Assembly: GCA_002205965.3 (NCBI GenBank)
Contig: NADL03000527.1
Coordinates: 215,725-279,724, forward strand
Length of the DNA stretch: 64,000 bases
DNA from: Kappaphycus alvarezii
Taxonomy: Eukaryota > Rhodophyta > Florideophyceae > Gigartinales > Solieriaceae
Direction of reading: 5' to 3'
Positions 7,661 through 44,292 of the stretch are shown one piece after another (within the stretch, counting starts at the first letter, position 1; each line of letters starts with the position of its first letter). Position numbers and translations under genes: made by a program. The notes under the pieces are model-generated. The model saw only the letters and a program-made list of their open reading frames with translations, had not been told where the DNA came from and did no database searches.

Positions 7661-7672
7661 GTTGGTGACAAC
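7661..7672 (+). other. Possible gypsy primer-binding site
   Basis: A TGGTGACAAC string follows a tctatatacaaata TATA-like stretch (about 7630) in the leader of the gypsy remnant. Its position and TGG start fit a primer-binding site, but without a second LTR the boundary cannot be verified. Confidence 0.25.
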
Positions 7673-11008: not shown

Positions 11009-11053
11009 AGGCCTTTAAAAAGGGCACCACATAAGAGACCGCTAGCAACGGAA

Positions 11054-12480
11054 TTGGAGCCACCCTTGAAGGACGAAAGGGCATCGCCCAACATTAGGAT
11101 GTCCACCCGGTTTACTTTTCCGCCACAAAGTCAATCATTTGTACCGGTTACAACAGACCGCCACGGCCTGATAGTTGTACAACTTGACTTAAGTCTCTAC
11201 AACAAATTCGGATTGGCAGCTGGCAATGGTATTGCACAAGTGGAAGCCGAGGTCCCATTTCGGTTGTTGATCGCGAACTTCACCAAATCCCCTATAACTC
11301 TCCATCGGTTGCAAATTGTTGCTCAAGCATTACCTCATCCCTCAATAACAGTACCAAGCCAGCTAAGCTTCGGAGAGGTACTCGGTGCCACCGAGGAAAT
11401 ATCCCCAGAGTATAGTCCTGCACCAACGCCTGGTGGACACCAGCGCGCTGTGCTTAAAGAACACGAACACAAAACTCTGAATGGAGAAGCTTTAACACCC
11501 GAAAGGTCTAGAAAAGCAGTAGAAGACCTCGATTGGAGCCACATAGATCCAACACTGGCCAGTAGATTCAAAGAAATGCTGAACAAGTTCTCGAGTATGT
11601 GGGATGGTTCGCTGGGAGCAATCAATACTGTTGAACACCACATCGAATTAATTCCCGGGACTCGCCCTATCGCTCAACCGCCTTACCGGGTTGGACCCAA
11701 GGCAAGGGAATTAGAAGCAACCGAGGTACAGAGAATGTTAGAAGCAGGCGTAACTGAGCCCGCACAGTCACCATGGGCTGCACCAGTGGTGTTAATTCCT
11801 AAGCCCGATGGGACGGTTCGTTTTTGCGTCGATTTGAACGCCGTAAAATTGAAGGAAACTTACCCTTTACCAAGGATGGATGAATGTATTGACTCCTTGG
11901 GAGATGTATCAGTATTCACTGCCCTTGATTGCAACTCTGGTTACTGGAAAGTTCAAGGAGCGAAAGAGGACAGAGAAAAGACCACCTTCGTATGCAACGC
12001 AGGATTATATCGCTATAGGCGAATGCCATTCGGATTATGCAACGCACCTGCTTCCTTTCAGCGCACCCTCGACATTCTTCTCTCATCATACCGATGGCGC
12101 TCCTGCCTCTGTACCTTGGCGATGTCATCATTTTTTCCAAAAACATGGAGGAGCACATCGAACATGTCGAAGAAATTCTGTTGGTGTTGCAACATGCTGT
12201 TGTATCCCTTAAGTTAAAGAAATGCACATTTGGGTCCGATAAGGTCAAATACCTAGGACACATCATCAAGCCAGGAAGACTAAAAATAGATTCTACCAGG
12301 GTAGCCGCACTCCGACAGGTGAAGCACCCGACTAAATTTACTGAGCTTCGGAGTTTTCTCGGCCTTTGCAATGTATACCGCAGATATACCAAAGACTTTT
12401 CCAGCATCGCGGCACCACTTAACAAGCTTTTGCGAAAAGGTATGCCAACCAAGATAGAACTATTTGGTGCTACCGAATAA
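11054..12480 (+). pseudogene. Gypsy reverse transcriptase (frameshifted, catalytic site altered)
   Basis: The first frame gives HHIELIPGTRPIAQPPYR, SPWAAPVVLIPKPDGTVRFC, LPRMDECIDSLGDVSVFTAL and FGLCNAPASFQR, the standard order of Ty3/gypsy RT. Around 12105 the frame slips and continues as LYLGDVIIFSKNMEEH, then KVKYLGHIIKPG and LRSFLGLCNVYRRY. The catalytic box reads YLGD where the family has YLDD or YVDD: the first Asp of the pair is replaced by Gly, which should abolish polymerase activity independently of the frameshift. Confidence 0.85.
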
Positions 12481-12959
12481 GTCGCTTTCCGGACTTCTAT
12501 CGCCGAAATTTTTACCCAAGGTATTGGCATTGCCAAAAGCGGGACTCCCTTATTCAATAGAAACGGACGCTAGTCAATATCAAGAAGGAGTCGCCCTTTC
12601 CAAACATACCCAATGGGGGAACAGAAAACCACAGGATTCTTCTCTAGATCACTCAAGGAAGCCGAGACACGTTATCCTGTCACAGAAAAAGAATGCCTGG
12701 CCGTGGTTTGGGCGTTAACGACATTGCGACCCTACCTACAGGGGGAGAAATTCACCATCCATACGGATCATTCCTCACTCAGGTGGTTAATGAATGTCAT
12801 GATCCATCGAAACTGATTATGCGCTGGAAGCTCCGAATTTCGGAATTAGACTTTGAAGTTGTGTATAAAAAGGGAAAAGCAAATACACAAGCAGATGTAT
12901 TATCAAGACTTAGTACCATCGGTGAAACTGTTGGAGATTTTGACGAGGAAGTACCGTGA
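12464..12959 (+). pseudogene. Gypsy RNase H (frameshifted)
   Basis: Three short overlapping frames carry YSIETDASQYQEGVAL, then SLKEAETRYPVTEKECLAVV, FTIHTDHSSLRWLMN and FEVVYKKGKANTQADVLSRL. These are the Ty3/gypsy RNase H and connection blocks in correct order. At least two frameshifts break it. Confidence 0.85.
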
Positions 12960-13331
12960 TTTCTTGCAGGGGACTCTTCCGCTCTTGAGGAGGGGGAGGC
13001 TGTGGACTTGTCCGCAAAAATCGAATCAAAATACGACAATAAGGCCGGGCAGTTCACAGAGTGTGATGAAAAGAGATTTCTTTCGACACTGCAGATCAAG
13101 TACTATCCATTCAAAACGGAAGTGAAGAAGAATTTGAATGCATTTCTCCGGAAGAGCTCTCCAGAGAACAGTACAAAGACGACTTCTGCTAGAAGATCCG
13201 TTCAAGAATAAATGCTGGACACCAGCTCCCCTTCACAATGGAAGCTCCCGGGCACGAAGGATACCTCTGCCGAACAGCATTAGAATACATTCAGATGGTC
13301 GTACGCAACTCCCTTCAACAGAGGATTTTAA

Positions 13332-13371
13332 GCCTAACTTGGAATGATGCAGGCATCATTCCAAGTTAGGC
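13332..13371. repeat. Perfect 19-bp inverted repeat with 2-nt spacer
   Basis: gcctaacttggaatgatgc (13332-13350), spacer ag, then its exact reverse complement to 13371. The right arm matches the expected integrase-upstream coding sequence; the left arm is the added inverted copy. Confidence 0.95.
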
Positions 13372-13955
13372 ACTCATCCAGATGGACAGAGACTGTATTT
13401 CCCTCTGAAAAAGTCCTACTATTGGCCGTCGATGTCGATTTATTGCTATGCCGTCGTTCGCTCGTGCCCAACTTGCGCGTAAATAGAATCAAATTGCGAA
13501 AGTCTGTGAAGGAGCTAAAAATCTTTGCACCAAGGGCCCCACTGGAGTTCGTAGCAATCGACATACTCGACGAACTCATCTATACCAACAGGAGGAATTG
13601 CTTCTTGCTGGTGATCACTGATCGATATTCCAAGCTCGTACGAACCGTGCCACTCAAGAAAATCTCTGCTGCAGCAGTTGTATCCGCCTTTGTAGCACAC
13701 TAGGTTTTTGTGTACGGTCCACCCATTCAGTTATTGTCCGATAATGGTAGCCAGTTTGCTTCAATATTCTTCTTGAGCGTGTGCTCAATTCTGGGTATCA
13801 AGAACTTATTCATTACTACCTACCACCCGCAGGCAAATGGGCAAGCCGAACGTTTCAATCGTGCCATCCTTACGGCCCTCCGGCACTACGTAGCTGATCA
13901 CCCGAAGGACTGGGACCTCTTCACGGACGAGCTAACATTGCTCCGAGCCATTTGA
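13344..13955 (+). pseudogene. Gypsy integrase core (stop-containing)
   Basis: The region encodes APRAPLEFVAIDILDEL with the first core Asp, DRYSKLVRTVPLKK, a stop at about 13701, then YGPPIQLLSDNGSQFAS with the second Asp and TTYHPQANGQAERFNRAI with the Glu of the DDE triad. The zinc-binding HHCC upstream and the C-terminal domain are not intact. Confidence 0.85.
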
Positions 13956-14008
13956 TATGCTACTTCTCACGATACACTAATACCCCTTGTCCTGGTTCGA
14001 AGTTCACA

Positions 14009-14361
14009 TTAGAGGAAAAAGGGAGGTTGGCTAGAAGAGCTTAGTATTTCGGATACGCAGCCTGGAGGTAATGGTTTCCATTTCTGCCCTAGTGAGGGAT
14101 AAAGCACGCATACGTTCTGCTTGATTGGGGAGGGAAGTTTTGGCAGAAGAGAAGCGAGGGAGGGTGCCGAAGAAAAGCAGGCAAGGGACAAGACCATCTG
14201 CATTCATGGTATCGTTCATGGCTTTGACTGAAATGGAAAGAATGATATGGGGTTCTAGTTGGGGGTATTCTAGGGAGACTTTGAGGTAGATTCTGCGCAA
14301 CGGGTCGTGATATTTTCGTCAACTCCAGGAGAATTATGTCTTCCAACACCTGAGAGATCAC
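14009..14361 (-). pseudogene. Ty1/copia integrase C-terminal fragment
   Basis: Minus-strand frames encode LSISVKAMNDTMNADGLVPC, LLFFGTLPRF and LPNQAERMRALSLTRAEMET, typical of the end of copia integrase (AxxLvFGxxPR...). It is in the same orientation as the RT/RNase H piece at 6366-7080 and belongs to the same remnant, split by the gypsy element. Confidence 0.75.
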
Positions 14362-14476
14362 TCACATACAGTATTTGACAACTTAAACTACCATACTGAC
14401 TTGAGTCGATTCGACTGGGTCACCTAGGATATGACTAACACTCCCCGGTATTCTGGTCGTGAGACTCAGGAAATAC
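14361..14476. repeat. Copy of the 6140-6257 copia LTR-like sequence
   Basis: From catacagtatttga to gagactcaggaaatacag this segment matches 6140-6257 with scattered substitutions (about 90% identity). It abuts the integrase fragment directly, so the copia gag and protease have been deleted or this is an internal rearrangement. Confidence 0.8.
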
Positions 14477-14519
14477 AGTCTTCTTCAAATCCTACAGGGT
14501 GCGTTGAGATTCTCGGTCT

Positions 14520-19562: not shown

Positions 19563-20610
19563 ATGTCTGCCCCCGAACCTGCCGCGGGGGGCCTGCGCCA
19601 CCGTCGCAGGATGTGATGCGCCAAGCAGCACACGCCTCCCTCAATTTGTTCATGGACCTCGTCCAACGTCTTTCGGCAGTTACCGATCTCGCGGCCCGCG
19701 ACGCTCCTTCCACCCTCTTCGAACTGCAGCGCTCTGACTCAGCGCTATCCACGGCCTTTGGCTTCCTCCGAAGTACCGCCGAGGCCGCCAACGTCGCCAA
19801 GTTCCTGGCCCAAATCGCCGACGTCTCTCCCCCCCCGCCATGCCGCCTGCCGCACCGGATCACGCTCCCTCGCCCTATCTCGCCGCTGCTCTCCGCCAGC
19901 CAGCGCCGAAATCCCCGCCCATCCGTCTTCCGTTGCTAGGTCGCAACACACCCCCGCCCAATGTTGCTCCGCCGACCCACCCGACGCTGCAGAGGAAAAT
20001 AAACCGCATCTCCGTCCGGCTTGTCAACAACGGGCCAAAGGAGTTTGCCCTGGTCTCCACACCACGCGACCAGCGCCCACTCCGCAACGCCCTGTCCCTC
20101 CGTAAGGCCTTAACCGCTGGGGGCTTCCCTGGCTCCATCACCGTCGTCCCCACCGCCGATCCACACGCAACCTTCGTCTGCGCCGCCGCCGACTCCATCC
20201 AACATACGCAATCCACCTACGACGCTTTCCGTGGCCACTCAGAATCCTCCCTTCCCCCCATCACCGTTTCTCCCCCCTCCCCTATCATTTCTCATTGCCG
20301 TTCCATTGCAGCGGCCCAATCCCTCCTACCCACCCTCCAAGCCGAGGTCGCGCGCCTCTCCAACCCCGCCTGCGCCTGGAGATCCAAGCAATACCTCATA
20401 GAAGTGCTGCACTCCTCCATCACGGACATAACGGCCCGCTACCCTGAGCTCGCCCCACCCGCCAATCCCGCCAACCTCCCGCCGCCCAACCCGTCTCCTC
20501 CATCCCCTCCTCAAAATCCTGGTCCTGCCAAACGTCTACGTTCCTCTGGACCTGAACCAGACTCTAACATGGAGGAAGCCTCACCACCCGCGCCCTCTTC
20601 CTCGGAGTAA
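19563..20610 (+). pseudogene. Non-LTR ORF1 (two single-base frameshifts)
   Basis: The start ATG at 19563 (MSAPEPAAGG) runs into a G6 run at about 19583, after which the sensible frame (MRQAAHASLNLFMDLVQRL) is one base off. A second slip occurs in the C8 run at about 19827, after which the frame from 19840 is open to 20610. Both look like one-base deletions in homopolymers. The protein is Pro/Ala/Ser-rich, with a conserved-looking core (KINRISVRLVNNGPKEFALV, then DPHATFVCAAADSI) and an acidic tail. No zinc knuckle is seen. Its likely role is RNA binding in the retrotransposition particle; this is inferred from position. Confidence 0.65.
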
Positions 20611-20612
20611 TG
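20608..20612 (+). promoter_or_regulatory. TAATG stop-start overlap between ORF1 and ORF2
   Basis: The ORF1 stop TAA (20608-20610) shares its last A with the ORF2 ATG (20610-20612). Such TAATG overlaps support termination-reinitiation in several non-LTR retrotransposons; here that mechanism is inferred. Confidence 0.7.
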
Positions 20613-21660
20613 GCTGCCCCAACCTCTGGACTTACCCATAGATGTCCGCCTCCCTCGATTGTCTTTCCACTCCCTGTCCCTACCCTTCCCTATCTTCCAA
20701 ATTCCCTTCGCCTTCCTTTTCACTCCCTGGTGGCAAGTCTTTGCAGGCGATTCGTTGAAGCCCGCACTACACAGGCACGCACTGACAACCTCTACAAAAT
20801 CATGGCCCTTGCGAAACTGGTTCTACGCAAGAACGGCCGAGGTGAACCACGAAACCGGCATCGCCCGAGCCTAGTCGCCTCCCTCAAGCGAAGGATCAGA
20901 CTAGCACAAGAGGGGCAGTGGTCCCACCTCCTTGACGAAGCCGCTGACGCCTTTGGCGCAGTCCTCCACCGCAAAGAAATTCCCATCCGATCCCAACAAG
21001 ACCGCTGCAAGCGGGCATTGCTCAACGGTTCTCCACACAAAGCCGCCCAAGCCCTCACTGCTGCAGCCCCATCAGTCCCGCCCACCTTGGCAAATGCCGA
21101 CAAGCTCCGGTCCCTCCATCCCGCTCCTTCCAATCCCGCAAACCGATCCGACAGAGGTACCCTGCCCCCGCCGTACAAGTTCACCGAAGCCGAAGTCCGC
21201 CGCCAGCTGCGACGACTCCCGTACCACAGCAGTCCTGGCCCGGATGGACTTCGCCCCTCCATACTCAAGGCTCTTGTACACGCCCCTGGCGGGGCCGAGC
21301 CCTCGAACTCGGCCCTCAAGTGGCTCACTGCCTTCATCAACAGTCTGGTCGACGGGAATTGCCCCACTGAGACTAGTGAATATGTCGTAAGCGCTACCCT
21401 ATTGGGCCTCCCGAAAGATGAAGCATGTCGCACCCTCCGCCCCATAGCCATTGGCCTTGCCATCCGTCGACTTGTAGGGCGCCTGGTAATGAAACGAATT
21501 CGAGGTGATCAAGAGATGGCCAACTACCTGCAGCCCCATCAACTCTGTGTAGGTGTCCCGTGTGCTACAGAAGCCATCGTCCATGCCACTCGGGCACGCA
21601 TACACGAACTGCAGAACAATTACACCGCCCACGTGCTCATTCAAGTTGATGCCCGAAACG
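20610..21660 (+). pseudogene. ORF2 N-terminal part: RT fingers up to motif A (5' half)
   Basis: About 350 codons from ATG 20610. The sequence has a basic N-terminal region, a linker, then the RT entry blocks SSPGPDGLRPSILKALV, CRTLRPIAIGLAIRRLVG, LQPHQLCVGVPCATEAIV and VLIQVDARN. The last contains the motif A catalytic Asp (codon at 21648). The frame is cut in the next codon by the inserted element; a further 37 codons to the stop at 21773 are read from the insert and are not part of the protein. No endonuclease of the APE type is present upstream. Confidence 0.85.
21656..21660. repeat. Target-site duplication, left copy (aaacg)
   Basis: aaacg immediately precedes the element's TGAAACA end and is repeated right after its TGTTTCA end at 31135-31139. 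Confidence 0.85.
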
Positions 21661-21906
21661 TGAAACAGGTGAATGACCGTTGCAACCTCGGTACATGCTA
21701 TCATACTGAATGCAATACGTTGGGACGCCCAGTGTCAGATTACTTTGAATATATGTGTCCTTTGAATATTTGAATGGCTGAAGGGTCGTGATTCGATAGG
21801 TCATTGCAGCATATAAGGCTTGAATGGATGAAGGAGATGGCATGAATAGAGGATTGGAGGTATCGGTTTTCAGATGGAGTAAAGACCATGTTCCTCTGTT
21901 GTTTCA
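21661..21906 (+). repeat. LTR 1 (left terminal; chimeric subfamily A 5' part, B 3' part)
   Basis: 246 bp, TGAAACA...TGTTTCA. Its first 130 bases match the right terminal LTR (subfamily A). Its last 100 bases (from gcatataagg) are identical to the internal LTRs (subfamily B) where the right LTR differs at about eight positions. A TATA-like tataagg lies at 21812-21818. Confidence 0.85.
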
Positions 21907-21907
21907 C

Positions 21908-21922
21908 TGGTAGCATCGCAAC
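21908..21922 (+). other. Primer-binding site, unit 1 (TGGTAGCATCGCAAC)
   Basis: It starts one base after LTR 1. Eukaryotic initiator tRNA-Met ends in GCUACCA, whose complement is TGGTAGC, so this is a good candidate for initiator tRNA-Met priming. The same string follows LTR 2 and LTR 3 (entries below). Confidence 0.7.
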
Positions 21923-22443
21923 AAGTCTCGGCGAATGAGAGGTTGTCGGTAGGAGGAAAAGTCCAGGACCGGTCCATGCTGCGTGGTATGGGACGCGTAG
22001 TATGTAAAAAAAGTTATGGTCTACCGAAACTGGAGTGCCAGTTTAGGTTGCCCATCAGCGTCTGTGATGGCGTTTGTATTGGGTCTTTTTCTCAGGCTGC
22101 TCGGTCGTGGAATAGACGAGGAGGCTGCGTTGAAAAGCCCAGCGTTGAGCGAAAGGCTCAAGTTTGCAAAGACGTGGGGGTTACGTTGAAAAGCACGGCT
22201 CCAGGCAAGAGGCTCGGAGAACGTGGAAGCTACGGTTAAACGCTGTGTGTTTTCTGTCGGGACAATACAGAGTCGCATGAACCCAGCAAGTGATGAACTG
22301 CCGATTAGCAGTGGCTGGGCTGCTCAGAACAATGGCGGAGAACTTTAATTTGGCCGGATGCCATTTGAACTTGAATTGGAATGAGCCTGTGACCGGCTTG
22401 GAATGGGTCTTCGATAGGCTCTAGAGAGCTTCTCCAGCACTTA

Positions 22444-24586
22444 TTGATGTCAACAAATCGAGTGCCCGTTGGAAGAGGCATACGTTGTGCACTACAAAAA
22501 AAAAAGAAAAAAAACCAAGGACTTGGTGCAAGATATTACAAGAAAGGTATCCACACGCCTTCCGATGTTACGATGATAAGCCGCGAGGTCGGCCCTCACT
22601 GCCGAACTCACCAAAGCGTCACCATGTCCCGGGCGATGCCTACCGCCTTCCGTCATTCGTACAACGCTTTTGTTTGCCACTTTCGTCTGTTCACCACCAT
22701 AAGTGCTCAGCCCGCGTGTTTATCAGCTTCTTCAGGCGCGCCTGTTGGTAAATCCTTTCGTTCAAATCTTCTCCGTATTGACAAACGGCCCTTTTCGCGG
22801 TTTTGCTTGTTACCAATCAAGCGCGCGATTACGGTGTCTTGTACCGAACCACCCCGTGGGAAGCCGGATGCGCGACAGAACGGGCGTCTACCATCTTTCG
22901 AAGGCGCCGGCGTCAGGGTTGCTCGTGAGTTTGTGAGAGACGAAGAGGTTTTAGACAGAGTGGAATGGGACCGGGAAAAAGACCTGGATTCGCTTGCGCA
23001 AGAGCTCGTAGAACTACATGAAGAACTTCAAGACGCTTTGGCCTCAAAAAGTGAAGTTAGCATAGCGCAAGGGGAAAACGTCCGCGTAGAACATCTTGGA
23101 CATGGAGTTTACGTGCAGCATAACGTTATGGCCTTAGATCGCGACGGGCAAAAGGAATCACCACTTACTATTACCCGTGAGGAGAGCAGAAGTTGCGTAA
23201 GGCATGCATTAGACGCCTTGCAGAGTGAATTTGCTGTAGCTGTGACTGGTCAGCCAGGTATCGGAAAAACTCGAGGCTCTATGATGTATGCCATCCAGTG
23301 TCTTCTTTACCGCAAGAGTGCTGTGTTGTACGTTGGGTACAAGTCGGAGGAAATGCTGCTGTTTTTACCAAAAGAAGACGGTAAGTACCGGGTTTGGAGC
23401 GGAAACCCAGCAAAGTTTAGAGAATCAAGATTCATTAGGGAGGAACGTGTGGTAACTGTCATTGATCCTCCGGAGGAGGGACCCTACAGTTCAATGGGTA
23501 AGTGCCGAGTACTCAAATTTGTTTCGAACAATGCTGAAAACACTTCAGAAACTGGGAAAAGGACGGCATTCTGCTGGTAACGTCGATGCCTACGGAGGAA
23601 GAGGTCATCGCGATGACAAAAGTTTTGTGGGACGAAGAGAAGTCTGCACACCCATGGCAAATCGATACACTCAATACGGTGGAGGAGCAAATGGCGGAAA
23701 TTGAGAAACGAATTGAGCTCGTTGGAGCTATTCCTCGTCTTGTATTTGACTCGGGACTGTTTTTAGATGCAGTCTGTGAGCACGTACAAGGCGCTGCTGA
23801 GGCGGGAGAAAAAGTTTCTGATTTCGATCTGTACAAGGCCTTGCGTGGAAAGTACTCAACATTCCTCGCGAAGCATCCTGCTACCGCTTCGTCAAGACTT
23901 TTACTTTTGAATCCAAAGACAGTGAACCACCACACATGGAAAGAACGAAGGATGCAGCGTCCCACATTCCAGCTGACACCCATTGCGACTCTGGTTCTTC
24001 GTGACCGTCTGGAGAAAAGCATCATTGCATTGAGGACGGAAAACTTTGAGGACTTTGCTTTTGACTGGCTTTGTGAGACTGAGGGGAGAAAAGCAGAAGT
24101 TCAGTACGTTTCAGAGGGTAATCATGACACTGCGTACCAAAGAATCGCTTCAATGGACCGGAACGAGCTTCGTGTGTATCGCCCAGCTGCGGGCAACTTT
24201 CCGTTTATTGATTTTGCCACAGGTTGCAAAACTTGGTACAACGCAAGTCCATTGGGAAGGGCGTCAAAACAGTGAAAGTTGACGAAGACGGAGCGAGAAG
24301 ATTCCTTGATAATCTGGAAAGGGTATTAGTGGCGAACAATTCTTCTGGTGACATCCAAAGCATTGTAAGGCACAGCAACCCTGTGCTTACCGTCCTAACC
24401 AATGGTAACACAGAGCCAACGTTACGCGACCCGACAGCCGCGTTAAACCTTTTGGGTGCGCGAGTGATTCTGAGGGTGGTGAACGTCTCTGAGATGTCTG
24501 CAATTGGAGAGCTGTTGGATCGCATTGATCGAACGCAGGTACTCCTTAGTGAATTGGAGAAACAGGTTGCAGGAGGCCTGCGTTGA
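22444..24586 (+). pseudogene. RHS/Crinkler-like P-loop NTPase gene, copy 1 (two one-base deletions)
   Basis: The long frame from ATG 22444 has a low-complexity, basic N-terminal part whose true start is uncertain (later ATGs exist), an acidic helical region (about residues 155-205) and a Walker A motif GQPGIGKT at residues 269-276 (23248-23271). A hydrophobic strand ending in VIDPP follows, a possible Walker B. A one-base deletion near 23540 moves the rest into the frame open from about 23560; another near 24244 shifts the last 110 codons, ending at 24586. The GxPGIGKT box followed by a Tyr-containing helix is the style of RHS (retrotransposon hot spot) and Crinkler NTPases of trypanosomes, oomycetes and chytrids. 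The Crinkler LxLFLAK header is absent. The C-terminal half has repeated conserved acidic blocks (ENFEDFAFDWLC) but no motif I can assign. About 535 bp of leader separates it from the primer-binding site. Confidence 0.65.
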
Positions 24587-24758
24587 GCGCTCCCCGGTGG
24601 TGTAGTAACGAACAAGGATATGTTAACGACGTTTTGGATTTGTACTCGGTCTCGACAGGATGTGGGAATGTGATGCCCTCGAGTAGAAATGAGACTGTGC
24701 CTTTTTTTGGTGTGAGAATGAATTGACGCGGACGTCAATTGATGCGAGGTGCCTATGG

Positions 24759-25017
24759 TGAAACAGGTTTAGTGACCATTGACCTCGTCTAATGCTAGCA
24801 GGTTGCAGCCACTGGGTTCGGACGCCCCACATCCAGATGATTGTGAATTTATCCGTTTCTAATGTCACTGTCGACAGTACTTGAACGGATGAAGGGGCGT
24901 GAGGTGATAGGTCATTGCAGCATATAAGGCTTGAATGGATGAAGGAGATGGCATGAATAGAGGATTGGAGGTATCGGTTTTCAGATGGAGTAAAGACCAT
25001 GTTCCTCTGTTGTTTCA
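24759..25017 (+). repeat. LTR 2 (internal, subfamily B)
   Basis: 259 bp with the same TGAAACA/TGTTTCA termini. The first half is strongly diverged from the terminal LTRs (the string ttgacctcgtctaatgctag is absent there), while the second half is the same. Confidence 0.85.
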
Positions 25018-25018
25018 C

Positions 25019-25033
25019 TGGTAGCATCGCAAC
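25019..25033 (+). other. Primer-binding site, unit 2
   Basis: TGGTAGCATCGCAAC one base after LTR 2; identical to unit 1. Confidence 0.65.
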
Positions 25034-25554
25034 AAGTCTCGGCGAATGAGAGGTTGTCGGTAGGAGGAAAAGTCCAGGACCGGTCCATGCTGCGTGGTAT
25101 GGGACGCGTAGTATGTAAAAAAAGTTATGGTCTACCGAAACTGGAGTGCCAGTTTAGGTTGCCCATCAGCGTCTGTGATGGCGTTTGTATTGGGTCTTTT
25201 TCTCAGGCTGCTCGGTCGTGGAATAGACGAGGAGGCTGCGTTGAAAAGCCCAGCGTTGAGCGAAAGGCTCAAGTTTGCAAAGACGTGGGGGTTACGTTGA
25301 AAAGCACGGCTCCAGGCAAGAGGCTCGGAGAACGTGGAAGCTACGGTTAAACGCTGTGTGTTTTCTGTCGGGACAATACAGAGTCGCATGAACCCAGCAA
25401 GTGATGAACTGCCGATTAGCAGTGGCTGGGCTGCTCAGAACAATGGCGGAGAACTTTAATTTGGCCGGATGCCATTTGAACTTGAATTGGAATGAGCCTG
25501 TGACCGGCTTGGAATGGGTCTTCGATAGGCTCTAGAGAGCTTCTCCAGCACTTA

Positions 25555-27697
25555 TTGATGTCAACAAATCGAGTGCCCGTTGGAAGAGGCATACGTTGTG
25601 CACTACAAAAAAAAAGAAAAAAAAACCAAGGACTTGGTGCAAGATATTACAAGAAAGGTATCCACACGCCTTCCGATGTTACGATGATAAGCCGCGAGGT
25701 CGGCCCTCACTGCCGAACTCACCAAAGCGTCACCATGTCCCGGGCGATGCCTACCGCCTTCCGTCATTCGTACAACGCTTTTGTTTGCCACTTTCGTCTG
25801 TTCACCACCATAAGTGCTCAGCCCGCGTGTTTATCAGCTTCTTCAGGCGCGCCTGTTGGTAAATCCTTTCGTTCAAATCTTCTCCGTATTGACAAACGGC
25901 CCTTTTCGCGGTTTTGCTTGTTACCAATCAAGCGCGCGATTACGGTGTCTTGTACCGAACCACCCCGTGGGAAGCCGGATGCGCGACAGAACGGGCGTCT
26001 ACCATCTTTCGAAGGCGCCGGCGTCAGGGTTGCTCGTGAGTTTGTGAGAGACGAAGAGGTTTTAGACAGAGTGGAATGGGACCGGGAAAAAGACCTGGAT
26101 TCGCTTGCGCAAGAGCTCGTAGAACTACATGAAGAACTTCAAGACGCTTTGGCCTCAAAAAGTGAAGTTAGCATAGCGCAAGGGGAAAACGTCCGCGTAG
26201 AACATCTTGGACATGGAGTTTACGTGCAGCATAACGTTATGGCCTTAGATCGCGACGGGCAAAAGGAATCACCACTTACTATTACCCGTGAGGAGAGCAG
26301 AAGTTGCGTAAGGCATGCATTAGACGCCTTGCAGAGTGAATTTGCTGTAGCTGTGACTGGTCAGCCAGGTATCGGAAAAACTCGAGGCTCTATGATGTAT
26401 GCCATCCAGTGTCTTCTTTACCGCAAGAGTGCTGTGTTGTACGTTGGGTACAAGTCGGAGGAAATGCTGCTGTTTTTACCAAAAGAAGACGGTAAGTACC
26501 GGGTTTGGAGCGGAAACCCAGCAAAGTTTAGAGAATCAAGATTCATTAGGGAGGAACGTGTGGTAACTGTCATTGATCCTCCGGAGAGGGACCCTACAGT
26601 TCAATGGGTAAGTGCCGAGTACTCAAATTTGTTTCGAACAATGCTGAAAAGCATTTCAGAACTGGGAAAAGGACGGCATTCTGCTGGTAACGTCGATGCC
26701 TACGGAGGAAGAGGTCATCGCGATGACAAAAGTTTTGTGGGACGAAGAGAAGTCTGCACACCCATGGCAAATCGATACACTCAATACGGTGGAGGAGCAA
26801 ATGGCGGAAATTGAGAAAAGAATTGAGCTCGTTGGAGCTATTCCTCGTCTTGTATTTGACTCGGGACTGTTTTTAGATGCAGTCTGTGAGCACGTACAAG
26901 GCGCTGCTGAGGCGGGAGAAAAAGTTTCTGATTTCGATCTGTACAAGGCCTTGCGTGGAAAGTACTCAACATTCCTCGCGAAGCATCCTGCTTCCGCTTC
27001 GTCAAGACTTTTACTTTTGAATCCAAAGACAGTGAACCACCACACATGGAAAGAACGAAGGATGCAGCGTCCCACATTCCAGCTGACACCCATTGCGACT
27101 CTGGTTCTTCGTGACCGTCTGGAGAAAAGCATCATTGCATTGAGGACGGAAAACTTTGAGGACTTTGCTTTTGACTGGCTTTGTGAGACTGAGGGGAGAA
27201 AAGCAGAAGTTCAGTACGTTTCAGAGGGTAATCATGACACTGCGTACCAAAGAATCGCTTCAATGGACCGGAACGAGCTTCGTGTGTATCGCCCAGCTGC
27301 GGGCAACTTTCCGTTTATTGATTTTGCCACAGGTTGCAAAACTTGGTACAACGCTAAGTCCATTGGGAAGGGCGTCAAAACAGTGAAAGTTGACGAAGAC
27401 GGAGCGAGAAGATTCCTTGATAATCTGGAAAGGGTATTAGTGGCGAACAATTCTTCTGGTGACATCCAAAGCATTGTAAGGCACAGCAACCCTGTGCTTA
27501 CCGTCCTAACCAATGGTAACACAGAGCCAACGTTACGCGACCCGACAGCCGCGTTAAACCTTTTGGGTGCGCGAGTGATTCTGAGGGTGGTGAACGTCTC
27601 TGAGATGTCTGCAATTGGAGAGCTGTTGGATCGCATTGATCGAACGCAGGTACTCCTTAGTGAATTGGAGAAACAGGTTGCAGGAGGCCTGCGTTGA
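25555..27697 (+). pseudogene. RHS/Crinkler-like P-loop NTPase gene, copy 2 (two one-base deletions)
   Basis: This is nearly identical to copy 1 throughout. The first frame (25555-26814) passes the P-loop. One-base deletions near 26585 and 26655 then shift it into the frame that is open to the stop at 27697. The site broken near 24244 in copy 1 is intact here, so the C-terminal half forms a single 333-codon frame from 26696. Its lesions differ from those of copy 1 except for the neighbouring positions around 23540/26655. Confidence 0.65.
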
Positions 27698-27869
27698 GCG
27701 CTCCCCGGTGGTGTAGTAACGAACAAGGATATGTTAACGACGTTTTGGATTTGTACTCGGTCTCGACAGGATGTGGGAATGTGATGCCCTCGAGTAGAAA
27801 TGAGACTGTGCCTTTTTTTGGTGTGAGAATGAATTGACGCGGACGTCAATTGATGCGAGGTGCCTATGG

Positions 27870-28128
27870 TGAAACAGGTTTAGTGACCATTGACCTCGTC
27901 TAATGCTAGCAGGTTGCAGCCACTGGGTTCGGACGCCCCACATCCAGATGATTGTGAATTTATCCGTTTCTAATGTCACTGTCGACAGTACTTGAACGGA
28001 TGAAGGGGCGTGAGGTGATAGGTCATTGCAGCATATAAGGCTTGAATGGATGAAGGAGATGGCATGAATAGAGGATTGGAGGTATCGGTTTTCAGATGGA
28101 GTAAAGACCATGTTCCTCTGTTGTTTCA
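27870..28128 (+). repeat. LTR 3 (internal, subfamily B)
   Basis: 259 bp and, as far as I can see, identical to LTR 2. It starts after the same gcctatgg string that precedes LTR 2. Confidence 0.85.
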
Positions 28129-28129
28129 C

Positions 28130-28144
28130 TGGTAGCATCGCAAC
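28130..28144 (+). other. Primer-binding site, unit 3
   Basis: TGGTAGCATCGCAAC one base after LTR 3; identical to unit 1. Confidence 0.65.
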
Positions 28145-28666
28145 AAGTCTCGGCGAATGAGAGGTTGTCGGTAGGAGGAAAAGTCCAGGACCGGTCCATG
28201 CTGCGTGGTATGGGACGCGTAGTATGTAAAAAAAAGTTATGGTCTACCGAAACTGGAGTGCCAGTTTAGGTTGCCCATCAGCGTCTGTGATGGCGTTTGT
28301 ATTGGGTCTTTTTCTCAGGCTGCTCGGTCGTGGAATAGACGAGGAGGCTGCGTTGAAAAGCCCAGCGTTGAGCGAAAGGCTCAAGTTTGCAAAGACGTGG
28401 GGGTTACGTTGAAAAGCACGGCTCCAGGCAAGAGGCTCGGAGAACGTGGAAGCTACGGTTAAACGCTGTGTGTTTTCTGTCGGGACAATACAGAGTCGCA
28501 TGAACCCAGCAAGTGATGAACTGCCGATTAGCAGTGGCTGGGCTGCTCAGAACAATGGCGGAGAACTTTAATTTGGCCGGATGCCATTTGAACTTGAATT
28601 GGAATGAGCCTGTGACCGGCTTGGAATGGGTCTTCGATAGGCTCTAGAGAGCTTCTCCAGCACTTA

Positions 28667-30808
28667 TTGATGTCAACAAATCGAGTGCCCGTTGGAAGAG
28701 GCATACGTTGTGCACTACAAAAAAAAAGAAAAAAAAACCAAGGACTTGGTGCAAGATATTACAAGAAAGGTATCCACACGCCTTCCGATGTTACGATGAT
28801 AAGCCGCGAGGTCGGCCCTCACTGCCGAACTCACCAAAGCGTCACCATGTCCCGGGCGATGCCTACCGCCTTCCGTCATTCGTACAACGCTTTTGTTTGC
28901 CACTTTCGTCTGTTCACCACCATAAGTGCTCAGCCCGCGTGTTTATCAGCTTCTTCAGGCGCGCCTGTTGGTAAATCCTTTCGTTCAAATCTTCTCCGTA
29001 TTGACAAACGGCCCTTTTCGCGGTTTTGCTTGTTACCAATCAAGCGCGCGATTACGGTGTCTTGTACCGAACCACCCCGTGGGAAGCCGGATGCGCGACA
29101 GAACGGGCGTCTACCATCTTTCGAAGGCGCCGGCGTCAGGGTTGCTCGTGAGTTTGTGAGAGACGAAGAGGTTTTAGACAGAGTGGAATGGGACCGGGAA
29201 AAAGACCTGGATTCGCTTGCGCAAGAGCTCGTAGAACTACATGAAGAACTTCAAGACGCTTTGGCCTCAAAAAGTGAAGTTAGCATAGCGCAAGGGGAAA
29301 ACGTCCGCGTAGAACATCTTGGACATGGAGTTTACGTGCAGCATAACGTTATGGCCTTAGATCGCGACGGGCAAAAGGAATCACCACTTACTATTACCCG
29401 TGAGGAGAGCAGAAGTTGCGTAAGGCATGCATTAGACGCCTTGCAGAGTGAATTTGCTGTAGCTGTGACTGGTCAGCCAGGTATCGGAAAAACTCGAGGC
29501 TCTATGATGTATGCCATCCAGTGTCTTCTTTACCGCAAGAGTGCTGTGTTGTACGTTGGGTACAAGTCGGAGAAATGCTGCTGTTTTTACCAAAAGAAGA
29601 CGGTAAGTACCGGGTATGGAGAGGAACGACCGACGATTTCTCCCGTTCACAGTTCAAGCAGGAGCAGCGGGTAGTAGCAGTAATTGATCCTCCTGAAGAA
29701 GGGCCGTATTCGTCAATGGGTGAGTGCCGAGTACTCAAATTTGTTTCGAACAATGCTGAAAAGCATTTCAGGAACTGGGAAAAGGACGGCATTCTGCTGG
29801 TAACGTCGATGCCTACGGAGAAGAGGTCATCGCGATGACAAAAGTTTTGTGGGACGAAGAGAAGTCTGCACACCCATGGCAAATCGATAACTCAATACGG
29901 TGGAGGAGCAAATGGCGGAAATTGAGAAAAGAATTGAGCTCGTTGGAGCTATCCCGCGCCTTGTCTTCGCATCGGAATTGTTTGGACTAGCAATCAGAGG
30001 GTGCCTACAGGGTGCTGAAGTAAGTACCGAAAAGCTCACTGATTCGGACCTGTACAAGGCTCTCCGAGGGAAGTACAGACCACTTCTCGAGAAGCACCCA
30101 GCATCTGCATCGTCAAGAGTTTTCTTTTTGAGCCCAAAGACGTTGACATTCAGGACATGGAAGGAAAGATCGCGGCATCCCGCTGCTTTCCAGCTTTCCC
30201 CCATAGCAATACTTGTTCTTCGTGACCGTCTGGAGCATAGCATTGAGGTCTTGAGGAAGGACAAATTTGAAGACTTTGCGTTTGAATGGCTTTGTGAGAA
30301 ACAAGGGCGGAAAGCTGAAATTCAATACGTTTCAGATGCTGATCACAGCAGTGCATACCAAAGAATTGCTTCGATGGATGAAGAAGAGCTACGAGTATAT
30401 CGTCCTGCTGCAAATAACTTTCCATTTCTTGACTTTGCAACGAGCAAGACGACGTGGTACAATGCGAAGTCAATTAGTAAGGAGATCAAGACAGTGCCAA
30501 TTGACGAAGACGGAGCTAGAAAATTCCTGGATAACCTGAAACGAGTTTTACTTGACAAGTATTCCTGTGATGAAGTCCAAGCCATACTAAGGCGTAGCAA
30601 GCCTGTGCTAACTGCCATAACTAATCGTGACGCTCATATAAGGTTTCGCGACTCGAAAGCGGCGTTAGACTTCTTTGGCCATCGTGTGATACTAAGGGTG
30701 GAGAACGTGTCTGATATGTCTCTAGCCGGAAATCTGTTGGAAGGTATTGATCGAACGACTGCGCTTCTTGATGAATTCCAAAGGCAGCAAACAATAGATC
30801 TGGGTTGA
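28667..30808 (+). pseudogene. RHS/Crinkler-like P-loop NTPase gene, copy 3 (mosaic, three one-base deletions)
   Basis: The first 900 bp match copies 1 and 2 almost exactly. From about 29610 to 29690 the sequence diverges; 29700-29950 is again almost identical; from about 29950 to the stop at 30808 it is a clearly diverged homologue (about 75-80% at the protein level by eye). One-base deletions lie near 29572, 29818 and 29889. The C-terminal frame (29900-30808, 302 codons) is open. The mosaic pattern suggests recombination or gene conversion between two subfamilies rather than simple decay. Confidence 0.65.
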
Positions 30809-30887
30809 AAGCCTCCTGGTTGTGCGGCTGTGCCTGTTTTTAATAGAAGCATTGACGCGGACGTCAATCGATGCGGGGTGTCTATGG

Positions 30888-31134
30888 TGAAACAGGTGAA
30901 ATGACCGTTGCAACCTCGGTACATGCTATCATGCTGAATGCAATACGTTGGGACGCCCAGTGTCAGATTACTTTGAATATATGTGTCCTTTGAATATTTG
31001 AATGGCTGAAGGGTCGTGAATCGATAGGTCATTGCACCATTTAAGGCTTGAATGGATGAAGGAGATGACATCAATAGAGGATTGGAGGTATCGGTTTTCA
31101 GATGGAGTAAAGACCATGTACCTCTAATGTTTCA
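30888..31134 (+). repeat. LTR 4 (right terminal, subfamily A)
   Basis: 247 bp, ends in TGTTTCA directly before the right target duplication. It differs from LTR 1 by about nine substitutions and one indel, including tttaagg in place of the TATA-like tataagg. Confidence 0.85.
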
Positions 31135-31139
31135 AAACG
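31135..31139. repeat. Target-site duplication, right copy (aaacg)
   Basis: Five bases identical to 21656-21660. Removing the element together with one copy joins the two ORF2 halves in frame. Confidence 0.85.
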
Positions 31140-32964
31140 CCTTTAACTCAATCGAGCGTTCCAAAATTCTCTCTCAGGCAATCCGCCGCATCCCGGCGGC
31201 CGCACGATGGGTCCACTTCCTCTACGGGGCTCCTTCCCGCCTCTTCTTCGGCCGTCACCTCATATGGAGTCGAACTGGCACCCAACAGGGAGACCCCCTC
31301 GGCATGTTACTCTTTGCTATTGCCCTCCACCCCCTTGCACAAGGACTAGCATCCAATTTCCCTGCCCTCCCGCTTCACACATGGTACGCTGACGATGGAA
31401 CACTGATTGTTCCTACTTCACAAGCCCACGCCGTTCTCCACTACCTGCGCCTGAACGGCCCGAACTTCGGCTTCCATGTTAACCTCAACAAAACGTCGGC
31501 CTGGTGGCCCTCTCCCTCACCACACGCTCTCCTACGTCACCTGCCATGCGACGTTCTCGCCTCTGAAGCTATCACGGTTCTTGGTAGCCCGATTGGCACC
31601 CTGGATGCATGCACTTCCCTGGCCATCAAAGCACTGCAGAAGGCCGAGTCACTCTGGACATCCCTCACAGCCATGAACGAGCCTCGGATCTCATTCCACA
31701 CTCTCCGATTCTGTGCCTCCTCATGTCTGGTTATATACTTGTTCCGCTCAACCCCGCCGCACATTACCTTCCCACTTGCCAAAGCTTTTGACAAGGGGTT
31801 GCGAAGGGTTTTCGAGCAAGTTCACCGGAAGATGTCGGACATCGCGTGGCTACAAGCCACGCTACCATTCCGCCATGGCGGCCTCGGGCTCACCCCATGC
31901 ACTTCCGTCAACGTCATCGCATACAAGGTCTCCAATCTGACGAACATGCCACTCATTCGGCGTCTACTGCACACAAACTCCACGCATGTTGCCAGGCTTT
32001 TGGCCCCATCCTACGACACCCTGGCCACAAGTTTGAACCTCCCTGCAGAACTACGACTAGAGGCACTCTTGTCACGATCGAACCACATCGACCACAACGC
32101 CGCTCGCTCCCTCCAGGAAGAAATCACCAGTCACTTCCACCGCTCACGCCTCTCCCTACTACGCGCTTCGGCCCCTTCCACCTCTTCATCGCATTTTTTT
32201 ACGCGGCTCGCCTCGACAACCTCCTCAAAGGCTTCCGCTCCCTTCTCAACACTTCCGCTACCGTCCACTGACCTATACACCTCAGGGGAGCTATGGCGCA
32301 CGATGGTCGACCTTCGCTTAGGTAACCCAATATTCTGCGGCCTCAGGCGCTGCCCTACCTGCCTGGAAGGTAACTATACTGTTCCCCCGCTCCTGGATAC
32401 CGTGGGCCACCACGCATCCACTTGCAAAGGGGGTGTGGGTGCGGTGCGCCGTCACAACCGTCTCGGGATATTCTTTACCGGGAACTTACTAGCCCGGCCA
32501 TCTCCCTCACCGTAATTCGGGAGCGAGTCTTTGCCGCCGACCTTCACAAGAGCCCAGCCGAGCAACGCGCACTGGACCTCGTCATCGACGACCCCTTATT
32601 CGCGCCCACACTACAGGGTATTGACGTCACGATTGTCAGTCCTCACTCGGCATCATATCGCAACCAGGCAGATGGAGGTCTCTCAGCACTGACACGAGCC
32701 GAAAAGCGCAAAAGGGAACACGATGCGCTACCCTGTCGTGCCGAGGGTATGGAGCTTCTACCTATGGCCATCGACATTTACGGACAAATTGGGCAACCGT
32801 ACTCCAGGCGCTCGCTCCATGACATGAGTAACTTCACTGCTTACCGCCGAGGGAAGCATCCTATGTCTGAATTCCGGAAGCTCAAGACACGTGTCTCATT
32901 TGTTCTACAGTACACCGCAGTCATGATTAATCACCGAAGACGGAGAACGTACCCCACCACCTGA
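31135..32964 (+). pseudogene. ORF2 C-terminal part: RT palm, zinc knuckle, nuclease-like end (3' half)
   Basis: The sequence resumes in motif A with AFNSIERSKIL, then has motif B (GTQQGDPLGMLLFAIALHPL), the catalytic YADD (WYADDGTLIVP) and VLGSPIGTLD. The C-terminus carries RCPTCLEG...GHHASTCKGG and, after a one-base deletion near 32470, RDILYRELTSPAI and GIDVTIVSPHSASY, ending at 32964. The Cys/His cluster plus the following block resembles the C-terminal end of elements with a restriction-like endonuclease; no full catalytic set was confirmed. The frame upstream of 31135 belongs to the insert. Confidence 0.85.
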
Positions 32965-39830: not shown

Positions 39831-40218
39831 GCTTAAGAAACATAGGACTTATGGATAAATGACATTGAGGGCCATCCGCACTTGTTTCTAACTGACATGA
39901 TGTAGCAATGGTAAAGAGATTTTTGACCTCTACAAGGCTCATAGAACTTGAGCGTCATTCTAGGCTCTATTTCTATAAAAATGATCATGAAATCTATCAC
40001 AAACGGCAGGGTTTTAGCGTATTTATTACAACAGAGAGATTGTATTTGCCATTCCTGGTCTTACTTGCAAAACAATGATCATAAAGTCTACCTTGCATGG
40101 CCTTGAAATTTCAGTTCGGAATGAGAGAATTTGGAGCGAGCCGTCATTTCTGCATATTGTGTTTTGAAAGAAATGGCAGCGAAGATCATCCGGACATATT
40201 TCTATCTGACATGATTTC

Positions 40219-40447
40219 ACCATGCAAAAGAGGTTTTGGACAACAACGACTTTCTGTGAAATACAAAGTCTTTCCCGGTTCTGTTTACATAAAAATGGCC
40301 ATAACGTCCATCATATACGGCTTTAGGGTTTTAGGGTTTTTTTCACCATGCAAAAGAGGTTTTGCACAACAACGACTTTCTGTGAAATACAAAGTCTTTC
40401 CCGGTTCTGTTTACATAAAAATGACCATAACGTCCATCATATACGGC
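40219..40447. repeat. Two-copy direct repeat, about 100 bp, around a telomere-like tract
   Basis: caccatgcaaaagaggtttt...catcatatacggc occurs at about 40219-40320 and 40345-40447 with two or three differences, separated by tttagggttttagggttttt. More diverged relatives lie upstream (about 39890-40010). The arrangement recurs at 49710-49938 in the duplicate. Confidence 0.85.
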
Positions 40448-40620
40448 GGGGGATTCGTAGTGTGTAATTTCCGGTTCTACTTCCAAAAACATGTTCATAA
40501 CGTCGAAATAAAACGGCCAGGAGCCGGCGGGTTGCAATGGAGAGAGTTCAGAGCAGGCTGCACATATAGTTCTTGGATTTAGGGGTTTTCAATTTGGGTT
40601 TCATTCTTGATTTCAGTTGC

Positions 40621-40650
40621 CACGTGTATATCACAATTTTTAGAATTACA
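40621..40650. promoter_or_regulatory. CACGTG half-palindrome with ACAATTTTT core, upstream of ParB-like gene copy 1
   Basis: gcCACGTGTA, then tatcACAATTTTTagaattaca; the right CACGTG arm is degraded. It lies about 250 bp before ATG 40876. Its duplicate is at about 50113-50142. Family description is under 58881. Confidence 0.6.
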
Positions 40651-40875
40651 ACTGTAAAATCAATAGTCAGTTACTATTTGCTTTGATTTGATTCTGCGCT
40701 TGCAATTAATTTGGGTACTTAAAGTCCAACGTTTTTCTTCCGTCTCTTCCTTCTCCCTCTCCAAACATATCCACATCTACCCTGCATCTCCACCCGCACC
40801 TATATCAGAATCAACAGATTATATTTCTCTACTAACTTAACTCGTTGCATACCTCTCTAAACATCTCTCTTCCAA

Positions 40876-43800
40876 ATGGCGCAAATGTTCCGTGCCTGTT
40901 TTAGCATCAAGCAGCTCAACATCATCTCCGATGCGATGTCAGAGAAGGCTCTTCGTCCTGTCGATAATGCCACTGTCGAAGTTATTGCGGAGGACATGAA
41001 AAGTTTTGGTTTTGACCAAGCGAAGAGAGGAACATTTATCATGGGAATCAAGACTTCGCATAGAGCTCACTTCAACGATGTCGCGCCCGGCTCTATGAAG
41101 GGAATGGTTTGGAACTTGAGCGCCAGGGAATTAGAAGCACTTCCATCCATAGATCTATGCACCTCACAAGCGGACGCCGAGTCGGATCTGAAAGAATTCA
41201 TTTTTATTGATGGCCGTCACCGACACAGGAGCATTGTTCAGGCCTTCTCCGATCGGGATGACATACTGGAAACGTACTTGTACTTTGATGTTTTCCTCAA
41301 TATACCTACAAGCCAGGCCTTAGTGATGTCTTACAACGCATCTCGCATTGCAAAATCGTCAGTTCCGTGCTTTCTCGACGAGTTGATCTGTATGAGAGGC
41401 CAGAAGTCCAAGCACGAATTACATTCTGCGATGAGGTTGTCGAAGAAACAGGTATCCGTTCTGAAGCATTTGAATGCCTGCATTACTCCCCTTTCACAGA
41501 GAGTGATCCAGCGTTGGCGCTCTTTGGGCCTCTTCTCGCTATCTAACATCATGGACAGGGGAAACAGAATGCTATGGACTCTTTGCATGCTTTTTCGCCT
41601 GGTACCATCAGATTGACGATGATGCGAAGGGGAAGAAAGAGCGCACTTTGCTCATCTCTTCACGCAGCTTCTTTGTATTCTCATTCCCGTTTGATGTTGG
41701 CTATGCAAGGATTTGTGTTCGCCGCTATTGTTGTTGTCTACCGGCAGGTTCACAAGAAAAATGGCTCCTTAAGCGCCGCGGGAGTTCTTGAAAGGGTATC
41801 CAGCAGCATTACGATCGCTATGCTGGATATACTACCGAGATGGAAAGCCGAAAACAACAGTCTATCAGATGCACAGAAAATGTTTTGGGCGCTTTTTGTG
41901 ACTTCGATTTCTTCCACTGCCCCATTTGATCAAGATTTGGAACAAGCTCATTCTAAATTTCGCGAGGTGTTGCAGGGTGTGGGTTCGGTCGAATTTGCTT
42001 GTGAAGATCTTGCACCAGCAAAACATCTATTCGACTCCATCCAGTCTCGTCTTTCCTCACCAGCTCGTGGCATGAAAATTGGGAAGGGCACAAAGAAGCC
42101 AGATGAAGCAACATCCCCCCAAAAAAGAAAATGCGAGTCGAAAGTCATGACGTATCTGACGTAATTGTTGAGGGGAAATCTCAAGAGGCTGCTGACGAAA
42201 TCACCGAAACGATCTCCGAATACATACCAAAGGGGAGTAGTCCCAACGTCATTGTTGCTCCGATCCCCCAAAACACCGTGGATACCAATCCAAAGCTCGA
42301 GGTGGTGGAACCTATTTTGAAAGTAAGGGAGAAACGCGCCTCGGTCGCAAAGGTGGTACATCTTACGTCAAAAGAAGTTATGGGGAGGGAAAAGATTCTT
42401 CAAATATCTGATGATAGCGTTGGAAGCACGGACGAGAAGTGTCTTGATGTTCGGAACGTGGAGAAAGTGAAGATGCATATGCCAGCACGTGAGGAAGCTG
42501 ATGAAGAGGTTGCAGACCGAACCGAAGACGATGCTGCAATTATGATTCTGCCTTCAAGCGCCCGCAGGCACCGAGAAAATACTCATTTAAGTGTTAGAAA
42601 GACTCGGAGTAGCGAAAGGCTGCGCTCTAAAAGGGACTTCTGCGATTCCCATCGCAGTAATGAGGTCAAGACGCAGCGCGAACAGGTCCCCTCGCAAAAG
42701 GCCAAACGAAAGAACTTCCCGGGAAAACGGGCATCTGAGCCTACCCCTCAACCGTCGAGTTCATGTGGACGTATTGATCCAGAAGTTCGACGCAAAATTG
42801 CGTGCGCCTCAAACTGTCTCGAGCTGGCTGATAAATACCTACAACAAATCGAAATCGTTCAGGTATCGCAGCATGAAGAGAGAATTCTCGAAATCGAGCC
42901 GGAACCTCTCCACAATGGAGCGAAGTGGATTGGCTTCTTCAAGTCCTATGATAACTGCTACGGACATACTGTCTCCGAAGTACTTGAAGAGATTTTCCTT
43001 AAGAACTATAACATGGAGTATGCCATAACAATGAACGAGACTGCCGTTATGTCTCCTGAGAAGTCATTTGGAAATGGAAAGCTTAAATTATACTCTCAGA
43101 CGATCGTTGTCTCGCCAGAGTTCGATGGGTCTTTGTCGAATATTGCTTCGACATGCATCTGCCACTTTTTGGTTTACGCTAATATCCTGAGATCCAAACA
43201 TCGCTTAAAATTCAGTCGTTGAGCTCCGAGGGTTTAGAAAGTGACCTTCACGCATTTCTCAAATTGGAGTTTAGCAAAATCATGCAGAGATTCCCTCGTT
43301 ATAAAATTCTCGACGTCACCGGCGAGGATACGGAGGTTCTCAAGGAATTTCTCACCGTGACCCGTCCATCATCTCCGACAGTTTTCCGAAAGGTCATGGC
43401 ATGGGTGTTCGATGGCCGGAGGTCGACATCAATTGGGGTCTTCGAGGCGTTGAGATCTATTGTCCTGAAGAAGTGCCATTGTGGTGGTCATTCGGTCCTT
43501 GGAAAACATAATGAAGGTGCTTTCAACCGCCATCCTGAAAGAGATAACCTTGACAGATCTGTTTCTGTTCCTTTTCTGATGACACTGCATCAGTCGGATA
43601 GAGTGATTTCCGAAATTGGTTTGAAGGCACATGTAAGCATTTTTCTAAGTAAGAACACCCCTACATCAGAGTCAGACTGTTACAAGAGGTTCAACGATGA
43701 TGGAACTCCGGTGGAACTTGGCGCTTTCATTTCGAAGGAGCAGGCCAGGGAAATAATCCAGCGTGGGGAAAGGCCTTTGCCATTGGTTCTTGGGCAGGCA

Positions 43801-44175: not shown

Positions 44176-44292
44176 CGTGTCATCAACTTGGGAGTAAAGA
44201 ATGTAATCCGAAGCAATGGGGAGGTGCTAAAGGGTAAACAACTCGCAACCAAACAGTTAAGTTAAAAGAGCTTATTTTTCAGAGCACCATGA

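Follow-up and report, generated by a model that had tools for sequence, protein, structure and literature searches.

An LTR-bounded repeat family with a resident RHS-type NTPase gene in Kappaphycus alvarezii

The LTR array and its gene

The window analysed in this study is a stretch of 64,000 nucleotides from Kappaphycus alvarezii (contig NADL03000527.1, positions 215,725 to 279,724 of the forward strand). It holds an array of 9,474 bp (21661-31134) that is bounded by long terminal repeats (LTRs) and encodes P-loop NTPases of the RHS family. The array represents a real, multi-copy mobile family, most likely one of non-autonomous LTR retroelements in which an RHS-type gene is resident. An earlier reading from the letters alone (the sequence-only reading) had described one element with terminal direct repeats, TG...CA ends, 7-bp inverted termini and a 5-bp target duplication. 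These features were all confirmed: the outer LTRs are 96% identical, have TG...CA ends, start with TGAAACA, finish with TGTTTCA and are flanked on both sides by AAACG. The outer limits of the proposed single element also stood, but two inner LTRs had gone unnoticed, and the array consists of four LTRs and three interiors, in a mixture of two variants, A (inner type) and B (outer type).

20568-21660, + strand: interrupted reverse transcriptase (RT) frame, 5' part
21656-21660, no strand: left target duplication AAACG, flanking LTR 1
21661-21906, + strand: LTR 1 (outer, 246 bp), variant B to its position 132 and variant A from 149
24759-25017, + strand: LTR 2 (inner, variant A)
27870-28128, + strand: LTR 3 (inner, variant A, identical to LTR 2)
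30888-31134, + strand: LTR 4 (outer, 247 bp, variant B)
31135-31139, no strand: right target duplication AAACG, flanking LTR 4
31140-32515, + strand: interrupted RT frame, 3' part, with an RVT_1 match and two relatives named SLACS

When the two flanks were joined by script with a single AAACG, an open RT frame was obtained that runs through HVLIQVDARNAFNSIERSKIL. The restored frame shares its NAFN motif with 23 of the 26 best RT relatives (21 by pattern scan, P0019 and P0021 by reading), and the SLACS protein name was found on 2 of the 120 listed relatives. As the joined flanks restore a conserved RT frame, the array was inserted inside an RT gene. Chance as the source of the terminal repeats was rejected on the basis of the flank joining, the NAFN scan and the duplications at other loci. 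Beside the interrupted RT gene, a 131-bp stretch (20149-20275) recurs about 39 kb away (58973-59102) with 82% identity.

The three NTPase copies predicted by the sequence-only reading are present in the sense that the P-loop (Walker A) motif GQPGIGKT occurs in units 1, 2 and 3. All three genes are nevertheless frame-broken, at differing places, which may be due to decay or to sequencing error. The open stretches are as follows.

22393-23580, + strand: unit 1, P-loop part of the RHS-family gene
23538-24275, + strand: unit 1, second open stretch in a different frame, RHSP 24.8 bits
24212-24586, + strand: unit 1, third open stretch (C-terminal end)
25504-26814, + strand: unit 2, P-loop part
26648-27697, + strand: unit 2, C-terminal stretch, variant A, with the E...D...NAK pattern, RHSP 23.7 bits
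28616-29674, + strand: unit 3, P-loop part, mostly variant A
29891-30808, + strand: unit 3, C-terminal stretch, variant B, no Pfam match alone

The cut-off of RHSP (Pfam PF07999) is 25 bits, so that the two matching window pieces fall just under it, and the remaining pieces gave no match. The uninterrupted copies at two other loci, L011 (647 amino acids, aa; 26.2 bits) and L016 (627 aa; 26.4 bits), were above the cut-off, as were the relatives P0001, P0002, P0003, P0005, P0010 and P0013 (27.6-35.2 bits). P0009, P0014 and P0017 scored under it and P0008 gave no match. In an alignment of 20 members, 16 matched RHSP at E <= 0.01. The RHS part of the predicted Crinkler/RHS cargo was thus upheld by the profile search for L011 and L016, and the Crinkler part was rejected, as no Pfam match to the Crinkler N-terminal header was detected in the window pieces, relatives and full-length copies scanned. 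In a set of 12 sequences, selected because they include the C-terminal part, the E and D of an E...D...NAK pattern were present in all 12 and the K in 10. This pattern suggests a putative nuclease domain of the restriction endonuclease (REase) type (PD-(D/E)XK). Searches for relatives in viral, prokaryote, plasmid and phage DNA led nowhere, and PDB sequences and PADLOC gave weak matches only.

The absence of gag and pol noted in the sequence-only reading was borne out. Four narrow patterns (CCHC, YxDD, D[ST]GA and HHCC) were absent from the six frames of the 9,474 bp, and the gag/pol patterns were likewise absent from five other genomic copies examined. Unit 2 has 24 open reading frames (ORFs) that are 60 aa or longer; nine of them were scanned against Pfam, and none of the nine reached a cut-off.

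Outside the gene, a TATA-like site is present in LTRs 1-3 (CATATAAGG), the counterpart in LTR 4 being CATTTAAGG. A sequence resembling a primer-binding site (PBS), TGGTAGCATCGC, starts 1 nt past each of LTRs 1-3; it or a one-base variant also followed the 5' LTR in 4 of 4 other copies checked. Where a polypurine tract would be expected there is a conserved block with a hairpin, found in the window and in seven other copies, in which ATTGACGCGGACGTCAAT, exact or with one base changed, stands before the 3' LTR.

21908-21919, + strand: PBS-like TGGTAGCATCGC, 1 nt past LTR 1, the same in units 2 and 3
24722-24739, + strand: hairpin ATTGACGCGGACGTCAAT just 5' of LTR 2
27833-27850, + strand: hairpin 5' of LTR 3
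30851-30868, + strand: hairpin 5' of LTR 4, in the block shared with the seven other copies

A search of the leader for known RNAs gave a single Rfam match at E 2.4 and none at the gathering score. Folding of the leader (z = -1.97 for 463 nt and -1.28 for 718 nt) led nowhere.

Copies across the genome and relatives in other species

The genome (336,021,096 bases, 884 contigs) was searched once with LTR 1, and 40 of 151 candidates were scored; counts of places are therefore lower bounds. Loci fetched around LTR matches are designated by L-numbers, and gene counts cover these LTR-linked loci. The LTR was present at at least 25 genomic places including the window, and all 24 others were fetched. 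RHS-type coding sequence adjoins the LTR at 18 of these 24 (L009-L012, L014-L025, L027 and L032). A genome-wide LTR search with a check for target duplications had been proposed in the sequence-only reading, and it yielded five other sites with perfect 5-bp duplications of their own. Three are gene-bearing (L011, CAGTT; L018, GTGGG; L025, CTCGG), the 3' end of L011 being read beyond the end of the BLAST match, as the LTR there has a short extra repeat. The other two are solo LTRs (L029, GGGCT; L030, TGCTG). With AAACG, which is found in the window, L010 and L019, six distinct sites carry 5-bp duplications. The flanks of the five further sites, where printed, are unlike the insertion site in the window.

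The gene was present in every paired-LTR interior examined (12/12 loci). For copies whose open frame extends to the gene end, the distance from there to the next LTR was 79-80 bp in eight loci, 91 bp in L015 and L021, and 173 bp in the A-type units of L009 and L014. The two LTRs of a copy were identical in L025, 98.8% identical in L011 and 98.4% identical in L018. The LTRs of L025 were at most 96.7% like any other LTR compared, and the 5' LTRs of L011 and L018 were identical to each other. By LTR identity L025 is the youngest copy, and its gene is interrupted. An intact gene in cis may therefore be unneeded for movement, unless the interruption is a later change or an error. The LTRs of L029 and L031 are 94% alike and about 80-86% like the B type of the window, forming a third LTR variant with no gene in the fetched stretch.

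Purifying selection was evident in the gene. For the four long open copies (L011, L016, L024 and L027), dN/dS was 0.20-0.36 in all six pairs and third codon positions changed most; L024 and L027 were included as long copies though their C-terminal ends are frame-shifted. Nucleotide divergence among these copies reaches 29%. The A and B C-terminal pieces of the window (299 codons, 72.7% nucleotide identity) gave a dN/dS of about 0.3 (dN 0.24 and dS 0.82 by NG86, 0.24 and 0.77 by YN00), with 67, 52 and 126 differences at the first, second and third codon positions. The N-terminal half of variant B was not seen in the window, where variant A takes its place. The low dN/dS between copies indicates that copies which now occupy different sites have been under selection. 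A gene that is useful to the element would fit this, as would repeated capture of host genes that were themselves under selection.

The sequence-only reading had linked the element to the expansion of these families in fungal genomes. The fungal link was not sustained: among 18 RHS relatives the one with a named source, P0017, comes from a red alga, Gracilariopsis chorda, and shows 69% identity over 116 aa. The interior of the element is 2852 bp long, and contigs of 2853-2959 bp held 6 of the 16 RHS relatives with known contig size and 6 of the 8 of those that are at least 450 aa long. In the RT search the same size range accounted for 3 of 119 (a hand count, with both limits set once the data had been seen). 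When an assembly contains repeated LTR elements, its contigs tend to end at the LTRs. The contigs of interior size are a hint that similar elements are present in other species.

Nature of the family

From these results it is highly probable that the family is a non-autonomous LTR retroelement, and that its resident gene encodes a P-loop NTPase of the RHS type that probably has a nuclease domain at its C-terminus. An LTR promoter would drive a single transcript serving as mRNA and as template, and RT and integrase would be supplied in trans by an autonomous element.

Several observations weigh against this assignment. No autonomous partner was seen, in a genome searched with LTR 1 only and with 40 of 151 candidates scored. 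The primer-binding site of the sequence-only reading held up as a PBS-like sequence, but the window and 30 fetched loci contained no tRNA fitting it (expected acceptor end GCGATGCTACCA). A polypurine tract was absent before the 3' LTR of the window (11/20 purines) and in the other copies checked. The LTR was without the gene in the fetched stretch at 6 of the 24 other places (L013, L026, L028, L029, L030 and L031), and no 5' LTR was found at L015, L016, L021, L022 and L024, with the extensions L033-L037 included. A 5-bp duplication was not shown at L020, where the left LTR is cut short and the flanks differ, or at the solo LTR L031; the AAAAA of L026 is ambiguous, the LTR end being degenerate. 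Purifying selection was also reported for captured pepper NLRs, and alone it is no proof of use to the element. Finally, 10 of the 25 places are one copied insertion. The AAACG junction of the window is shared, on the side or sides fetched, by L009, L010, L013, L015, L017, L019, L021, L023 and L027, whose flanks are 95.2-99.7% identical to those of the window over up to 3.5 kb and which have a varying number of A units. Given the shared junction and near-identical flanks, the ten places were not counted as independent insertions, and the proposal that all genomic copies are independent was rejected. The nine loci are either duplications or separately assembled haplotypes of the insertion in the window.

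In three loci at this AAACG site, the left LTR consists of its first 178 bp only, joined to a later part of a leader like that of L020.

L010 1581-1757, orientation as compared: shortened left LTR
L019 479-658, orientation as compared: shortened left LTR
L027 3509-3685, orientation as compared: shortened left LTR

Splicing was considered as the source of this form, but there is no GT at that point; an internal deletion copied along with the locus is likelier.

The Ty3-like element of the window was considered as the autonomous partner, but its repeats are unlike the LTRs of the array. This element (6137-14478) has a 121-bp direct repeat (92.6% identity), with ends that are not TG...CA, around a Ty3-like RT ORF (11009-12217).

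An improbable alternative is that the gene is passive freight, captured from the host by an LTR element once or more, with no role for the element and with a signature of selection that belongs to the host source genes. The interrupted gene of L025, the most recent insertion seen, is in keeping with this proposal, as are the three broken gene copies of the window. In plants, LTR elements often capture genes, and such genes can bear the mark of purifying selection, according to the parts of PMC13317346 and PMC5664825 consulted. Against it stand the presence of the gene in all 12 paired-LTR interiors at a near-fixed distance to the 3' LTR, and the divergence of the variants (up to 29%), which indicates that gene and LTRs have long evolved together.

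It is very unlikely that the RHS-type NTPase-nuclease is itself a mobility protein and that the direct repeats are the ends of a new self-moving DNA element. It is the sole gene present, the polypurine tract is absent, and prokaryote NTPase-REase proteins have been linked to transposable elements in a review (PMC5289972, in the part consulted). TG...CA ends, LTR pairs that are nearly identical within a copy, duplications around solo LTRs and the TGG site following the LTR are nonetheless usual traits of retroelements, and the youngest copy, L025, has an interrupted gene.

Within the favoured assignment to non-autonomous LTR retroelements, a more specific proposal is possible but tentative: that this is a long-lived LTR family, probably spread through the red algae, in which an RHS NTPase-nuclease replaces gag and pol and is selected because it serves the element. 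The RHS protein might then act on DNA or cDNA of competing elements, or in insertion. If this were true, RHS genes would in part be genes of the element, and the view that RHS loci merely serve retroelements as targets would be reversed.

The RHS family has been studied mainly in trypanosomes. The Trypanosoma RHS genes resemble those described here in matching PF07999, in including pseudogenes and in having mosaic copies formed by recombination, but in the part of PMC7563717 consulted they are targets of non-LTR retrotransposons, whereas in the present family an LTR element carries the RHS gene. At one site this RHS-carrying LTR element is inserted in an RT gene of the non-LTR type. The Crinkler-RHS concept, and the link of prokaryote NTPase-REase proteins to transposable elements, are taken from the review PMC5289972, which in the part consulted reports Zhang et al. 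2016.

The closest known arrangement is from pepper, where NLR genes lie within non-autonomous LTR retrotransposons and about 72% of the retroduplicated NLRs are in elements without gag or pol (PMC5664825, in the part consulted). In both cases an NTPase gene of a large family is found between LTRs, and purifying selection is reported in that part of the pepper study. The pepper genes differ in being retrocopies of intron-bearing host parents, by the same account, whereas the present gene is of the RHS type, has a near-fixed spacing and is in every paired-LTR interior examined. Maize Bs1 is likewise an LTR element with host-derived coding sequence, but it is described, in the part of PMC13317346 consulted, as holding segments of three host genes with no full-length frame; here the gene is full-length in at least two copies.

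The family can also be set beside the TRIM and LARD elements. TRIMs and LARDs are not known to code for any protein. Like the present family they have LTRs, lack gag and pol and are presumably moved in trans (for TRIMs, PMC6934838). TRIMs have a short interior by that account, and the present family has an NTPase gene.

In the open-licence literature, searched by titles and abstract openings, no RHS gene inside an LTR element was described. The claim of the sequence-only reading that such packaging would be a new way of spreading these genes can be retained for RHS genes within the literature searched, but not for the kind of arrangement, since NLRs in LTR elements lacking gag and pol have been published for pepper (PMC5664825, in the part consulted). 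The present family extends the pepper case to another gene family and probably to another lineage. The RHS and Crinkler-RHS families are large, with a patchy distribution and a debated origin. A mobile LTR family with RHS as its only gene provides a concrete route for RHS multiplication within a genome, and it makes testable now whether RHS genes of other lineages began as, or remain, genes of mobile elements.

History of the array and other features of the window

The LTR starts of the array are spaced by 3,098, 3,111 and 3,018 bp. The two inner LTRs, which do not differ from each other, are 77% identical to LTR 4 and, across the last 140 bp, 95% identical to LTR 1. The interiors of units 1 and 2 are 99.7% alike, with 13 differing columns. 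Unit 3 resembles them for the first 1.7 kb including the LTR, and afterwards at about 73%. The outer LTRs show 10 differences: two substitutions and one indel in the first 148 positions, and seven from position 149 onward, at all of which LTR 1 has the A state. At the other end, A sequence extends to about 29615 and is followed by B.

29616-30887, + strand: unit 3, stretch of variant B that contains an A-like patch (29723-29952)

Most simply, the array would have begun as a B-type insertion that was later overwritten and lengthened through recombination with A-type copies, which left it with four shared LTRs and three interiors. Ty1 cDNA can recombine into resident elements. Ordinary strand transfer was rejected as the source of the mixed LTR 1, as the two LTRs of a new copy would then agree; a further reason is the position of the switch (133-148), which precedes the TATA-like site at 152. 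That the array is an assembly artefact, one element having been expanded in assembly or polishing and blended there with other copies, is extremely unlikely: the 13 differing columns between units 1 and 2, the short A-like patch inside B and a separate 9.5-kb tandem duplicate at 99.8% in the same window speak for it, but shared-LTR arrays recur on other contigs (L009, L012, L014, L019 and L042), and such an error would alter the local copy number, not the nature of the family.

A longer array, with at least three consecutive A-type LTRs before a B-type end, is seen in L042 (218-6691) together with L017 on contig C312. The 9.5-kb duplicate of the window (39831-58811) consists of two head-to-tail copies, 99.8% identical, with several long ORFs, five of which were scanned without a Pfam match; it is either a duplication of very recent origin or a duplicate made in assembly. 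Near the start of the window, an ORF at 537-1868 matches Uma2, a putative restriction endonuclease, with 33.7 bits, and has a tail of repeated EAKNDAL units.

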